Below are positions 618 through 42,795 of a stretch of 46,850 bases of DNA, piece after piece. Position 1 is the first letter of the stretch. The number at the start of each line of letters is the position of its first letter. A model generated the notes under the pieces. That model saw nothing but the letters and a program-made list of their open reading frames with translations, made no database searches and was not told where the DNA came from. The stretch comes from Rhodospirillales bacterium (GTDB lineage Bacteria > Pseudomonadota > Alphaproteobacteria > Rhodospirillales > UBA2165), in NCBI GenBank assembly GCA_012960465.1, contig DUBF01000011.1:1-46850 (forward strand), given 5' to 3'. Both the position numbers and the translations under genes were made by a program.

Positions 618-1826
618 ATGAAAAGTCTGGCGCGTAAGGCTCTCAATATTGATGATCTTCGCAAGATGGCGAGCCATCGATTAACAAAATCCTTATTCGA
701 CTTTTGCGATAAAGGAAGTGAAGACCAAATCTCTATGCGAGATAATCGTATTGCGCTCGATCGTATCAAACTGATGCCACGTGTCCTGCGAGATGTTTCG
801 CGTCGGGACCCAAGTACTACCCTATTTGGTAAGCGTCACGATCTTCCGCTCGTGATTGGACCAACCGGCCCCGCCGGTTTTGTCTGGTATCGGGGAGAAA
901 CAGCACTAGCTCGAGCTGCTGCCGGAGCAAACATTCCGTTTACTCTTGCCAGCTCCTCTAACACGGCTATGGAGAAAGTTATGGCCAACGGTGGCGGAAC
1001 TCAATGGTTTCAGCTTTATATTTGGCAAGATGTGGAGGCAGCCTTGCTAACCGTTAAGCGCGTACTCGACGCCGGTTTCGAAGCTTTAGTCCTTACGGTC
1101 GATTCACCTGTGTACAATAATCGTGAGATCGACGTTCGTAATGACCTGTCGTTTCCCCCTCGAGTTACGCTGCGTAGCGCAATTGATGGTATCCTTCATC
1201 CCCACTGGCTTTTTGGCACGATCGGACGCTACATTCTGGATGAAGGCCATCTGCCCAAATTTACCAATGTACACATTCCCGAGCAGCATAAATCTAACGC
1301 TTCAAATTATGTTTCTGCCGCCTCTAAAGGTTTCTTCAATCGAAACGATACACTGGATTGGAATTTCGTGCGGCGTCTCCGCGATCTGTGGCCGCGGAAA
1401 CTGTTAATCAAAGGAATATTACATCCCGAAGATGCCTTATTGGCCGCAGATTGTGGTGCTGATGGTATATTTGTCTCAAATCATGCCGGTAACGTCAATG
1501 ACACTGCTATTACGACCTGGGATGCTCTACCTGCTATTGTTGATGCCGTAAGCAACCAGTTAACAATTATCGCTGATACAGGAGTTCGCCGGGGTAGTGA
1601 TGTTTTAAAGGCGCTTGCCCTTGGAGCAGACTTAGTCGCGATTGGGCGGGCGACGCTGTATGGCGTGGCGGCCGCTGGAGAGATGGGAGCCGCTCGAGCG
1701 TTAGAAATTTTCGATGCTGAAATCTGTCGGACGATGGCTGTTATGGGGCTGTCGGATGTTTCATCTATTACCCGGGATCATATCCGTCTCCCCGGAGAAT
1801 TGCCGGTGTCGGGATCAGTCAAATAA
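618..1826 (+). CDS. Atypical FMN-dependent alpha-hydroxy-acid oxidase / dehydrogenase
   Basis: The 402-residue protein matches the LldD / glycolate oxidase / mandelate dehydrogenase family: a TIM barrel that binds FMN and oxidises 2-hydroxy acids to 2-oxo acids. WFQLYI (Tyr134), LTVDSP (158-164) and the base histidine in SNHAG (His289) are present. Two substrate-binding residues differ from the family norm. The position of the first tyrosine (Tyr24 in glycolate oxidase) is Phe29 in LFDFCDKG. The arginine that follows the catalytic histidine (HGxR in most members) is Asn292 in HAGN. The canonical paralogue at 40956-42104 keeps both. The substrate is therefore probably not a simple 2-hydroxy carboxylate, or the chemistry is altered. 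The start follows a G-rich stretch at 605-612 that can act as a ribosome binding site. Confidence 0.88.
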   Translation: MKSLARKALNIDDLRKMASHRLTKSLFDFCDKGSEDQISMRDNRIALDRIKLMPRVLRDVSRRDPSTTLFGKRHDLPLVIGPTGPAGFVWYRGETALARAAAGANIPFTLASSSNTAMEKVMANGGGTQWFQLYIWQDVEAALLTVKRVLDAGFEALVLTVDSPVYNNREIDVRNDLSFPPRVTLRSAIDGILHPHWLFGTIGRYILDEGHLPKFTNVHIPEQHKSNASNYVSAASKGFFNRNDTLDWNFVRRLRDLWPRKLLIKGILHPEDALLAADCGADGIFVSNHAGNVNDTAITTWDALPAIVDAVSNQLTIIADTGVRRGSDVLKALALGADLVAIGRATLYGVAAAGEMGAARALEIFDAEICRTMAVMGLSDVSSITRDHIRLPGELPVSGSVK

Positions 1827-16089: not shown

Positions 16090-16896
16090 ATGGATGTGCC
16101 TAGAAGTCAGGCGATGCCATATAATAATGATCATTTCACAGTAAAAGAATATGATTGGGATGTTTTTGGCGGTCCTTCGTCAGGTGAAAAATTTATTGAT
16201 TGTGAACTGTTCGATCTAGGAACAGGTAATAAGGTCAAATTTTCTGATTTCGAAGGGAAGTGGGTTGTCCTTGAGACGGGTTCTTCTACTTGCTCTATGT
16301 ATACTAAAAATATTCCTGACATGAAGGGGATTGAAGAAGAATTTCCAGACGTAAAATTTTTGATGATTTATGTTCGCGAGGCTCATCCAGGTGAGCGTCT
16401 GGGTGCTCATAAAAACTGGGAAGAGAAGCTCGCGGCAGCAAAACTTGTTAAACCTCGTTATAGTGAACATCGACAGGTTTTGGTTGATGGCGTTGAGGGT
16501 GAGTTTCACCGTCAATACGGTATGATGCCTAATATCATTTATGTGATTAGGCCCGATGGGACAATCCACTACCGATGTAATTGGGCTACGGCCAACGATC
16601 TCAGGTCAGCTCTTACGAATCGTGAAGAATTTCACACTTATGAAAATGCGGACCTTAAAAAGTTAAAGGCGGCTCGCGGACTTTATACAACCATTAGGAC
16701 GATGTGGACGGGTGGTTTTGTTGCGCTGTATGATTTTATTAAAGCCAGCCCGGGTATGGCTATCCGCCACCAGCGAGTAGATCAATATTATAAGGAAAAT
16801 GGAAAATTTAATAAAAAGCCCGGCTTATTTTCTCAAGGTTCAACAGGTCTTCAATCGTACGAAGATACTAAAATAGAAAATGACAGTAAAACATAA
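16090..16896 (+). CDS. Iodothyronine-deiodinase-like thioredoxin-fold protein (Cys form)
   Basis: The 268-residue protein has the hallmarks of the deiodinase-like branch of thioredoxin-fold proteins. VVLETGSSTCSMYTKNI places Cys68 where animal deiodinases and many bacterial relatives have selenocysteine (GSxTUPxF). FLMIYVREAHPGE (90-102) matches the conserved IYxxEAH segment. LVDGVEGEFHRQYGMMPN and VIRPDGTIHYRCNW fit the later thioredoxin strands. Bacterial members are cytoplasmic thiol-redox enzymes of uncertain substrate, so deiodination should not be assumed. The start at ATG 16090 has GGGGAGG nine bases upstream. A single peroxidatic-like cysteine with no CxxC suggests peroxiredoxin-like chemistry is also possible. 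Confidence 0.75.
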   Translation: MDVPRSQAMPYNNDHFTVKEYDWDVFGGPSSGEKFIDCELFDLGTGNKVKFSDFEGKWVVLETGSSTCSMYTKNIPDMKGIEEEFPDVKFLMIYVREAHPGERLGAHKNWEEKLAAAKLVKPRYSEHRQVLVDGVEGEFHRQYGMMPNIIYVIRPDGTIHYRCNWATANDLRSALTNREEFHTYENADLKKLKAARGLYTTIRTMWTGGFVALYDFIKASPGMAIRHQRVDQYYKENGKFNKKPGLFSQGSTGLQSYEDTKIENDSKT

Positions 16897-40316: not shown

Positions 40317-40850
40317 TTATCGCCGAATATTACCCAGAATTTTAGAAAGTTTTTCAGTACCTAAAAATTCTTGTTTCCCGCGGCCATAAATAATTTTACC
40401 TTGTTGATTAAAAATAAAACTCATTGGAACGTTAGTTAGTGGGGAAAAATATTCTTCAATTCTTTTATTAGAACGAACCACGCGAATACTGGGGTGGAAC
40501 GCTCGGACCATATTATTTAAACGCCCTAATGAGGAATTTTCGTATCTCTCTTCTGTCCAATTAATAGCTATAATATTAACTCTTTTTGTCCCACCTTTAT
40601 TAAGAAATTCACGGAGTTGCACGAACTCTGCGCGGCAGGAACCTCACCAACTTGCAAAGAACGTTATGAGAATTGGTTTACCGTTAAAGGTTTTTTGACT
40701 GACCTTTTTACCAAGAACAGGCTTAGCCTGGAGTAAAATTTCTTTTATATTTTCGGACAGGTTAAGTATTTGGTCCGCCCCAGCACTAGGAACTGCGGAC
40801 AAAAAACCTATATACAATAACAGTGAAAGTGATAAATATTTTAATTTCAT
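40317..40850 (-). CDS. TlpA-like thioredoxin-fold protein with in-frame UGA (candidate selenoprotein)
   Basis: The frame runs from ATG 40850 to TAA 40317-40319, interrupted only by TGA at 40644-40646 (codon 69). Read through, it gives a 177-residue protein with a signal peptide (KYLSLSLLLYIGFLSAVPSAGA) and FNGKPILITFFASW (about 55-68). The UGA codon and GSCRAEF follow, and later VPMSFIFNQQGKIIYGRG holds the cis-Pro loop. In TlpA/ResA-like proteins the motif is FxASWCxxCRxE, so UGA is exactly at the first redox cysteine and Cys72 is the resolving one (UGSC). Both sides match the family, which argues against decay. It would be a periplasmic thiol-disulfide or selenenylsulfide oxidoreductase. 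A nonsense mutation remains possible. TGA is a normal stop elsewhere, for example in dctQ and the DASS gene. Confidence 0.8.
40610..40632 (-). promoter_or_regulatory. Candidate bacterial SECIS hairpin after the in-frame UGA
   Basis: On the minus strand, GAGTT (40628-40624) and AACTC (40618-40614) form a five-bp stem around the loop CGTGC (40623-40619). After one A-C mismatch, CGC (40632-40630 on the minus strand, 5' side) can pair with GTG (40612-40610, 3' side) through one G-U pair. The loop starts 24 bases counted from the U of UGA. Its second base is G. Bacterial SECIS elements are short hairpins about 16-37 bases after UGA with G near the start of the loop, so position and shape fit. Confidence 0.55.
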
Positions 40851-40955: not shown

Positions 40956-42104
40956 TCATCCGTCCTGCCATATATATTCTCGATCAAGTTCCATTATATC
41001 TTTACAGCCAATTTGGGCGAGTACTTTATCAACCTCATTTACCATAAGATCGAGGACAAATTCAGCTCCTTGTTCATCGAGTGCTCCTATGCCAAACATA
41101 AATGAACGACCTGAAAAAGTAAATGAAGCCCCTGAAGCAAAAGCTTTAATAATATCGGTACCACAACGAATTCCGCTATCCAACATTATGGTCAATCTTG
41201 GTTCAACTGCTTTTACTATCCGAGGTAGCGTTTCAATAGATGAAGGGGCACTATCCAATTGGCGACCTCCGTGATTGGAAACTATTATACCATCGGCGCC
41301 AATACGCATAGCAGCTTGTGCAGATTTTGGTGAAAGAATTCCTTTTATTACAAAAGTACCACCCCAGGAATCACGAATTTGTTTGATTAAATCTTCACTT
41401 AATCTGGCTGATGTTTGGAGTACTTGTGCGGCGTTTAAAGATTGTTTATCAGCAGCTTCTTGCATGTATGGTACCATATTTTCAAATCGCGGTATGCCAT
41501 TGATTAAAGTAGAGATGGCCCAGCGTGGTTTTCGAACTATGTCCATAATTATCCGCGGTGTCATTTTGAAGGGTAATGTAAAATTATTTCGAAGATCGCG
41601 GAGGCGTATAGATGGCTCTGGTATATCAACTGTTAAGACTAAAACTTTAATCCCAGATTCTTTAGCGCGTTTAATTAAATCAAAACAAATGTAATCTTTA
41701 CCGGGGATATAAAGCTGAAACCAAGTGTGGTCTGGCGCTATATCCGAAATTTCCTCAATTGTAGAAGTCCCAACGGCACTCAATAAGTAGGGTATATTTC
41801 TTTTCTTTGCCATCGTAGCGAGCGTTTTATCGGCATTAGGCCATATTAAATTTGCTAGACCTATTGGGGAGATGCCAATCGGGGCATCATATGTATGCCC
41901 GAAAAGAGTAATTTTTTGATTTCTCTCAGTGACGTTGCGTAGGTACTCTGGTTGGAGCGTAATGTTTCCAAAACCAGAACGATTACGGTGAATATTTGCT
42001 TCGTTGCCGGCTCCGCCATCTAGGTAGTCAAAGGCGAGTTTTGGAATTCTTGTTTTAGCTCGTGATCGAAGTTCATCGAGTGTGAAATATTTATTTGGGG
42101 TCAT
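40956..42104 (-). CDS. FMN-dependent alpha-hydroxy-acid dehydrogenase (LldD-like)
   Basis: The 382-residue enzyme shows the complete active-site set of the L-lactate dehydrogenase / glycolate oxidase family. Tyr27 lies in FDYLDGGAGNE, Tyr132 in WFQLYI, and His278 with Arg281 in SNHGGRQLD. It is an FMN TIM-barrel enzyme that oxidises a 2-hydroxy acid such as lactate, glycolate or mandelate and passes electrons to quinone, cytochrome or oxygen. The gene follows the FrnE/DsbA-like gene by 16 bases on the same strand. Its stop is about 105 bases upstream of the candidate selenoprotein, so the three may form one leftward unit. It is the canonical counterpart of the divergent paralogue at 618-1826. 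Confidence 0.92.
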   Translation of the reverse strand: MTPNKYFTLDELRSRAKTRIPKLAFDYLDGGAGNEANIHRNRSGFGNITLQPEYLRNVTERNQKITLFGHTYDAPIGISPIGLANLIWPNADKTLATMAKKRNIPYLLSAVGTSTIEEISDIAPDHTWFQLYIPGKDYICFDLIKRAKESGIKVLVLTVDIPEPSIRLRDLRNNFTLPFKMTPRIIMDIVRKPRWAISTLINGIPRFENMVPYMQEAADKQSLNAAQVLQTSARLSEDLIKQIRDSWGGTFVIKGILSPKSAQAAMRIGADGIIVSNHGGRQLDSAPSSIETLPRIVKAVEPRLTIMLDSGIRCGTDIIKAFASGASFTFSGRSFMFGIGALDEQGAEFVLDLMVNEVDKVLAQIGCKDIMELDREYIWQDG

Positions 42105-42120: not shown

Positions 42121-42795
42121 TTAATTATTTGAGTGGATACTGTGTACGCCAGGTTCGTGGATCTTGTTTGAATTTTCTTCTGCTACATTAAGCATACGCA
42201 TAAGAACTTTTGTATCTTGTACGCCAGAAATTGAGAATTCTTGATTAAAAATAAAGGCAGGAACGCCGTTAATACCCAAGCGAGAAACGTGTTGGTTTTG
42301 ACTTAAGGTTTCGATAATATCTTTATCACTATATAGATATTTTCTTAAATTTATGTCATCAAACCCAAGTTCTGTTCCAATATCGATAAGAATGGATCTG
42401 TTGCCTATATCTCTTCCCTTCACAAAATAATTTTGGTAAAGGGCTTCCAACATCTCAGCACCCTGGTTTTGGCGAGAAGCTAATTTAATCAACCTATGAG
42501 AATTTAACGTATTCGGAGCTCGTTTTATTCGAGTTAAATCAAATTTTAACTTAAGGTTCTTGGCTGATCGGCTAATAGCGTTATTTAATTTTTCATATTT
42601 TAGTTTTCCACCTAATTTCTTATGTATATATTCATTAAAATCTATACCTTCTAGAGGCATTTCTGGATTGAGAAAATATGAATACCAATTAATTTCAAAA
42701 TTTAAATATGGCAAGTTAGCTAGTGCCAAGTCGAGCTGTCTTTTCCCAATGAAACACCATGGACAAATTGTATCAAAAACTATATCAATTCGCAT
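42121..42795 (-). CDS. DsbA-family oxidoreductase, FrnE-like
   Basis: The 224-residue thioredoxin-fold protein with a helical insertion carries the redox motif CPWC (Cys11-Cys14) near the N-terminus in FDTICPWCFIGKRQ. The cis-Pro segment is GINGVPAFIFNQEFSISGVQ. The helical insertion has NSHRLIKLASRQNQGAEML. No signal peptide is present, so it is cytoplasmic, unlike DsbA. The FrnE / 2-hydroxychromene-2-carboxylate isomerase group acts in disulfide chemistry and stress tolerance or, in isomerases, glutathione-dependent steps. It is divergent from the MFS exporter gene across 240 bases and lies 16 bases upstream of the LldD-like gene. Confidence 0.9.
   Translation of the reverse strand: MRIDIVFDTICPWCFIGKRQLDLALANLPYLNFEINWYSYFLNPEMPLEGIDFNEYIHKKLGGKLKYEKLNNAISRSAKNLKLKFDLTRIKRAPNTLNSHRLIKLASRQNQGAEMLEALYQNYFVKGRDIGNRSILIDIGTELGFDDINLRKYLYSDKDIIETLSQNQHVSRLGINGVPAFIFNQEFSISGVQDTKVLMRMLNVAEENSNKIHEPGVHSIHSNN

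Follow-up and report, generated by a model that had tools for sequence, protein, structure and literature searches.

Selenoproteins with a UxxC redox motif in TlpA-like and related domains have already been described. TlpA-like (cd02966) and Redoxin (PF08534) UxxC selenoproteins are both tabulated in a review of 2026 (PMC13188914), and a thiol-disulfide isomerase-like selenoprotein with the same motif was reported in 2005 from the Sargasso Sea, with 4 sequences (PMC1088965). Because such proteins are on record in these two sources, the claim of a UxxC selenoprotein is in itself less novel. The locus presented here lies in a window of 46,850 nucleotides, which is the whole of contig C11 in a draft genome of 3.74 Mb and 245 contigs from a bacterium of the order Rhodospirillales. 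By its description, the Sargasso Sea selenoprotein has in common with the protein encoded in the window (hereafter the window protein) a TlpA-type domain (cd02966, as the review labels it), the UxxC motif and a bacterial SECIS element (PMC1088965, PMC13188914). By the listing of domains and motifs, the Redoxin (PF08534) and Prx-like (PF00578) UxxC selenoproteins share the motif and belong to Pfam families which the window protein also matches above cut-off (PMC13188914), and the same motif is listed for Trx-like 1 of the GOS data (COG0526, UxxC; PMC2398784).

The lineage of the window protein is named in no title or passage of the open-access PMC selenoprotein literature that was covered (PMC13188914, PMC9312934, PMC2398784, PMC12013277, PMC5029168, PMC1088965), and the families listed there may include it. 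It is taken here as a new lineage within a known kind of selenoprotein. A well-supported selenoprotein lineage is thereby added, whose gene is likely to be broken in two or overlooked in routine annotation. One and the same family displays Cys relatives, apparently one gain of selenocysteine (Sec) and, in some genomes, two copies, and the RNA signal stands out through a steep local fall in synonymous change. The understanding of Sec insertion and of TlpA proteins stays as before.

The thiol-disulfide oxidoreductases ResA, StoA and CcmG (DsbE) resemble the window protein in predicted fold, in the layout of the active site and in the apparent export signal, but they have Cys at the first redox position, where Sec is proposed for the window protein. 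At +3 from its second Cys the window protein has a Glu, and ResA presumably has one there too. In NCBIfam, the window protein scored 40.9 bits with the DsbE/CcmG model (cut-off 123), 40.7 bits with StoA (cut-off 210) and 38.3 bits with ResA (cut-off 170). With 38-41 bits against cut-offs of 123-210, it is therefore none of the three by the curated definitions, and no NCBIfam model listed up to an E-value of 1 reaches its cut-off. The UGC-containing TlpA selenoprotein, or WAxxUGC ResA-like protein (NF041054), is TlpA-like with Sec in the active site by its name (PMC13188914); its motif is UGC whereas the window protein has UxxC, and the latter obtained 25.7 bits against a cut-off of 300. The UGSC-containing protein (NF041046) shares the four letters U-G-S-C with the window protein. 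Membership in it was rejected: the model is not among the 15 NCBIfam matches up to an E-value of 1, and the middle residues vary in homologues (UTTC, USTC, UMTC, UPPC and others), so that the likeness in four letters is accidental.

An open frame interrupted by a single TGA

The original prediction had described two ORF halves in one frame with nothing but a TGA between them. Indeed, when the TGA is read as a residue, positions 40850-40317 of the minus strand form one frame of 177 codons from ATG to TAA of which the TGA is the sole interruption. From the frame, the Pfam matches, the AlphaFold model and the PDB match, 40317-40850 (minus strand) is proposed as a selenoprotein gene coding for an exported TlpA/ResA-like thioredoxin, with one UGA read through. 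The TGA is codon 69 (40644-40646, minus strand). It is preceded by FFASW and followed by GSCRAEF, giving FFASW-U-GSC-RAEF, and frame and alignment column make it the proposed U69, first residue of a UxxC motif completed by C72.

With the base composition of the window, the chance of 107 further open codons is about 0.0009. A count of TGA-interrupted frames in the window, requiring 30 or more codons before and 40 or more after the TGA, came to 33. In all but four of them, 30% or more of the length is shared with another ORF of 150 aa or longer; one of these four is the antisense of the selenoprotein gene. Judged by eye, the codon-69 frame alone has a redox motif at its TGA.

Conservation of the TGA and cysteine homologues

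The TGA form was detected in 7 of the 9 genomes of the genus, in 16 of the 24 genomes of the family and in 18 of the 317 genomes of the order, the own genome being included in each count. As three genomes carry two TGA-form genes each, the 18 genomes hold 21 genes, and a profile search returned the same 21. They are 33-63% identical to the window protein, and every one of the 21 matches contains one stop only, the TGA. The phylum sample yielded 1/398, the own genome alone.

In an alignment of 27 rows, column 69 has U in 21 rows and C in the other 6, and Cys is present at +3 in 27/27, which agrees with the earlier proposal that the UGA occupies the position of the first redox cysteine. The two residues between the redox positions are variable (GS, GA, TT, ST, IT, MT, VT, SV, SA, PP). 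An exchange of Cys and Sec at this column had been put forward as a check, and it is seen in the 6 Cys rows, in the class sample (385), where 9/9 matches besides the own have Cys at column 69, and in 13/13 named loci of several phyla. The search for named loci wrote U as C in its patterns and consequently leans towards Cys forms. Among the loci whose sequences were read, L070 had no match to the pattern applied. The observation of the in-frame TGA is confirmed as real, and the strong evidence is its conservation, i.e. the same TGA in the same column of 21 genes in 18 genomes. The gene very probably encodes a protein with Sec in its active site.

A tree of 44 rows, with U written as C, placed the 21 Sec forms in one clade (support 98/89) among Cys forms, with no Cys row inside it. 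Nearest to the Sec clade is the Cys gene L028 from the same genus, and the other Cys forms lie outside. The root was set at the midpoint and some of the outgroup branches are long. The tree was built without the fragment L029, and L043 and L072 are identical in it; L046, L051, L052 and L053 were left out both of the tree and of the comparison of stem pairing between Sec and Cys genes given below. The simplest reading of these relationships would be one change from Cys to Sec and a later duplication that gave rise to two types, UPPC (clade support only 88/58) and UxxC-R. On balance, we lean towards a lineage-specific Sec subfamily: Cys would have been replaced by Sec once, in an exported TlpA-like oxidoreductase that now occurs in three families of a single order, whether inherited or transferred; duplication and a near-frozen SECIS would have followed, and the sampled Sec clade contains no Cys form. 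If this holds true, the subfamily would make a clean case for asking what selenium brings to a disulfide reductase outside the cytoplasm. In the genome G002 (C29:43677-44220), the Cys paralogue of this protein family is present as two overlapping pieces in different frames, from decay or an assembly error, and the Sec copy of that genome is intact.

Selection on both halves and a SECIS-type hairpin

After the hairpin described below, w amounted to 0.046, 0.051 and 0.088 in three gene pairs of one genus and, in a fourth pair that has few changes, to 0.22. Three further close pairs gave pN values of 0.023-0.027 versus pS values of 0.07-0.15. Over 210 pairs of Sec genes, where synonymous sites are near saturation, the means were pS 0.74 and pN 0.36 downstream of the TGA versus pS 0.70 and pN 0.32 upstream. 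The low w after the hairpin and the similarity of downstream and upstream values indicate that the part 3' of the TGA is under purifying selection and constrained as a protein much like the part before it. Recoding rather than decay, which the original prediction had favoured, is thus upheld by relatives that keep the TGA together with an intact and selected downstream sequence.

From folding, covariation and synonymous constraint, a SECIS-type hairpin is predicted at 40610-40632 (minus strand), with the stem CGC-A-GAGUU / AACUC-C-GUG and one A.C mismatch. It starts about 11 nt downstream of the UGA, inside the coding sequence, and its apical loop CGUGC (40619-40623) is spaced 20 nt from the UGA. 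In the window gene the hairpin has a 5-bp upper stem (-9.2 and -9.5 kcal/mol) and, with the one A.C mismatch, fits the bacterial SECIS model as quoted in PMC13188914. The folding energy of the window stretch is no better than that of shuffles (z -0.21 to 1.16).

Across the 21 Sec genes, a core stem GAGUU/AACUC is accompanied by variable outer pairs, and the loop of the relatives is CGUGC, in some CGUGG or CGGGG. The core stem belongs to the minimum-energy fold of 16/21 Sec genes and is missing in that of L020, L061 and L065-L067. The gene L064 displays GAATT/AATTC with a longer loop of 6 nt (CGUGCA), a register shifted by one and Ile for Leu, at -7.2 kcal/mol. RNAalifold delivered the same stem at -7.49 kcal/mol with a covariation share of -0.41. 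In the 19 distinct rows of the 21, 90.8% of the stem cells are paired, versus 25.7-45.4% when the partners are slid by 1-3 columns. Ten cells show a change in both partners, and a single pair accounts for nine of these; 0/500 shuffles reach this number, and 0/500 reach the covariation score. The number of pairs with a double change (2, reached by 316/500 shuffles) and that of further pair types (6, reached by 459/500) are not above shuffles.

A stronger contrast was obtained at the level of codons. Codons +6 to +10, which form the core, have a pS of 0.066, the lowest of 136 five-codon windows with a median of 0.716. In a set of 17 genes (the 21 Sec genes minus four near-copies), the fraction of identical codons reaches 0.88-1.00 over +6 to +10, drops to 0.25 for both +4 and +5, and is high also at the neighbouring codons +2, +3 and +12 (0.78-0.88); its mean over +3 to +11 is 0.75 versus 0.42 elsewhere (p 0.002). 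When the better of two registers is taken, all 6 counted stem positions pair in 19/21 Sec genes versus 0/24 Cys genes. Five of the 6 pair, by alignment, in the window gene and in L020, and likewise in 5/24 Cys genes. As far as these sequences tell, the case for the hairpin is carried by the frozen codons and not by the pairing of the window gene alone.

Selenocysteine machinery and its co-occurrence with the TGA gene

The original prediction had made its case dependent on selABCD elsewhere in the genome, and a genome-wide search found selA, selB, selC and selD. A tRNA-Sec is located at C123:6803-6893 (77.5 bits, above the gathering score), where ARAGORN also calls a SeC tRNA with anticodon tca. 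On the same contig, selA (L018:18657-17254; 611 bits, cut-off 268) adjoins selB (L018:17257-15335; about 453 bits, cut-off 242). The selD gene (399 bits) was found on C109 (L054, 49958-50887). It is interrupted by a single in-frame TGA of its own at the usual site, HGGG-U-GCK, which makes SelD probably a second selenoprotein of this genome. The tRNA-Sec gene lies about 8.4 kb from selB and is not nested inside it (L018 6799-18657, C123 of the own genome); nesting within selB is mentioned for some alphaproteobacteria (PMC9312934). The interval between tRNA-Sec and selB codes for two proteins that, judged by eye, are a large oxidoreductase of the molybdopterin type and a ferredoxin-like protein.

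Among the 18 genomes with the TGA gene, 16 have selB or tRNA-Sec: selB was found in 12 and tRNA-Sec in G006, G017, G109 and G111. For the remaining two, G008 and G018, neither selB (E-value up to 1e-60) nor tRNA-Sec (E-value up to 1e-9, 131 candidates scored each) was found; both genomes are fragmented, with a completeness of 88% and 80%, respectively. Over the 24 genomes of the family, the presence of the TGA gene and of selB (both, TGA gene only, selB only, neither) is distributed as 12/4/2/6 (Fisher p 0.03). The same table for selB or tRNA-Sec is 14/2/4/4 and not significant (p 0.13), tRNA-Sec having been sought in 13 of the 24 genomes (the own genome, G001, G012 and the 10 in which selB was not matched). 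In the 10 best genomes, the association is 7/7 versus 1/3. Four of the 8 family genomes without the TGA gene carry part of the machinery, namely selB in G001 and G012 (the latter without a tRNA-Sec match) and tRNA-Sec in G003 and G015. In these four, other selenoproteins may keep the machinery, or the gene may have been missed in the drafts. No tRNA-Sec was found in any of the five f7 genomes with Cys forms (131 candidates scored each).

Export, fold and proposed function

The first 25 residues or so (40776-40850, minus strand) are a probable Sec-type signal peptide, predicted by eye from the basic end KLK, a hydrophobic core and SAGA before the cut. The best Pfam match of the protein is Redoxin (7.8e-12); AhpC-TSA, Thioredoxin_8 and Thioredoxin are also above their gathering scores, and GSHPx and SCO1-SenC match below their cut-offs. 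An AlphaFold model, in which U was handled as C, reached a mean pLDDT of 84.9; most of residues 1-26 scored below 50. The top PDB match of this model is ResA (1su9; E-value 1.1e-9, 18% identity, TM 0.59/0.75), and the predicted fold is ResA/TlpA-like. With U read as C, W68, U/C69, C72 and P142 are invariant in the 21 Sec sequences; E75 is kept in 18/21 and is Gly in the other 3. We take E75 to sit at the place of the active-site Glu80 of ResA, and P142 to be the cis-proline of the thioredoxin fold.

The proposal for the function builds on what can be read from the sequences, namely the conserved UGA, its exchange with Cys, the Sec machinery and the selection on both halves and on the hairpin. 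SelA, SelD, SelB and tRNA-Sec of the same genome would insert Sec at codon 69, the UGA, with the hairpin within the coding sequence directing the insertion. The N-terminal signal sequence would export the product. Beyond the cytoplasmic membrane it would adopt the fold of a TlpA/ResA-type thioredoxin domain and act as a thiol-disulfide oxidoreductase, most likely a reducing one. In the active site, U69 would be the attacking nucleophile and C72 the resolving cysteine, with E75 and P142 at their usual places. When selenium is missing, translation would end after codon 68 and leave a stub. We hold it as highly probable that the gene encodes such an exported Sec thiol-disulfide oxidoreductase, in which the genome's own machinery inserts Sec at codon 69 and U69 attacks while C72 resolves. 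The likeliest job would be thiol-disulfide exchange outside the cytoplasm, probably in the reducing direction, for which Sec would offer a faster nucleophile. We infer here the actual insertion of Sec, the export, the redox direction and the substrate.

Alternative explanations

A nonsense mutation or a sequencing error in an ordinary CxxC gene, leaving a decaying pseudogene, would require one base change from TGC or TGT to TGA, and the contig belongs to a draft genome in 245 pieces. This explanation was rejected and is given practically no credence, the same TGA being conserved in all 21 genes with no other stop in any match and the downstream half being under purifying selection. A TGA reassigned throughout the genome (e.g. 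to Trp, code 4), or read by a near-cognate tRNA, would account for one sense-like TGA within an otherwise open frame. However, TGA serves as an ordinary stop, as the original prediction had assumed: the next upstream gene (42104-40956) ends with it, as do L066 and L067 among the homologues. Column 69 is moreover Cys, and not Trp, in those homologues without TGA that were read, and reassignment leaves the constrained hairpin 3' of the UGA unexplained. With TGA stops in use and Cys at column 69, genome-wide reassignment was rejected, and such a decoding of the TGA appears just as negligible as a pseudogene.

The two other alternatives accept a selenoprotein and differ in what it is for. Its main job might be peroxide reduction, as in a peroxiredoxin-like protein, or a Sco-like copper or redox function, instead of thiol-disulfide reduction. 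Sec is common in peroxidases, Redoxin is the best Pfam match with AhpC-TSA above and GSHPx and SCO1-SenC below cut-off, and structures of Sco1/ScoI occur among the lower ranks of the best 50 of 1256 PDB hits. The same best 50 are led by ResA, followed by StoA, DsbE and CcmG, and peroxiredoxin is named in none of their titles. The UxxC pair is kept, and the second Cys and P142 are invariant, which is the layout of disulfide exchange. In the tables of the 2026 review, the verified peroxiredoxin selenoprotein has TxxU, and UxxC is assigned to a 'Prx-like thiol:disulfide oxidoreductase' (PMC13188914). A peroxidase or Sco-like role is accordingly considered unlikely, though worth keeping in view. 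Alternatively, the gene could be kept mainly as a selenium switch, translation stopping after codon 68 when selenium is scarce and readthrough serving regulation. Such behaviour follows from UGA recoding in general, and the Sec clade of the tree contains no Cys row; against it, the 68-residue stub would be without most of the fold according to the AlphaFold model, and no coupled downstream gene is seen at the locus. A regulatory purpose is thus regarded as quite improbable, and the exported Sec thiol-disulfide oxidoreductase remains the preferred reading.

Genomic neighbourhood

Five neighbours in the window were compared with the flanks of 22 loci (own locus included, L057 left out), using ORFs of at least 90 codons and flanks of at most about 1.8 kb, some of them much shorter. 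The one neighbour met again was mfd, in a single other genome (G006), and no neighbour in the window names a substrate. Two paralogues of an FMN-dependent dehydrogenase (PF01070, E-value about 1e-119 each) are located near opposite ends of the contig, at 618-1826 (plus strand) and 40956-42104 (minus strand). The latter is adjoined by a DSBA-domain protein (42121-42795). At 16090-16896 (plus strand), the window also encodes a Deiodinase/AhpC-TSA-like protein (PF00837, 1.3e-11) with a Cys in GSSTCSMYT; the genome, as described above, is equipped with the Sec machinery. This Cys apparently stands where, as we assume, deiodinase-like selenoproteins carry Sec.
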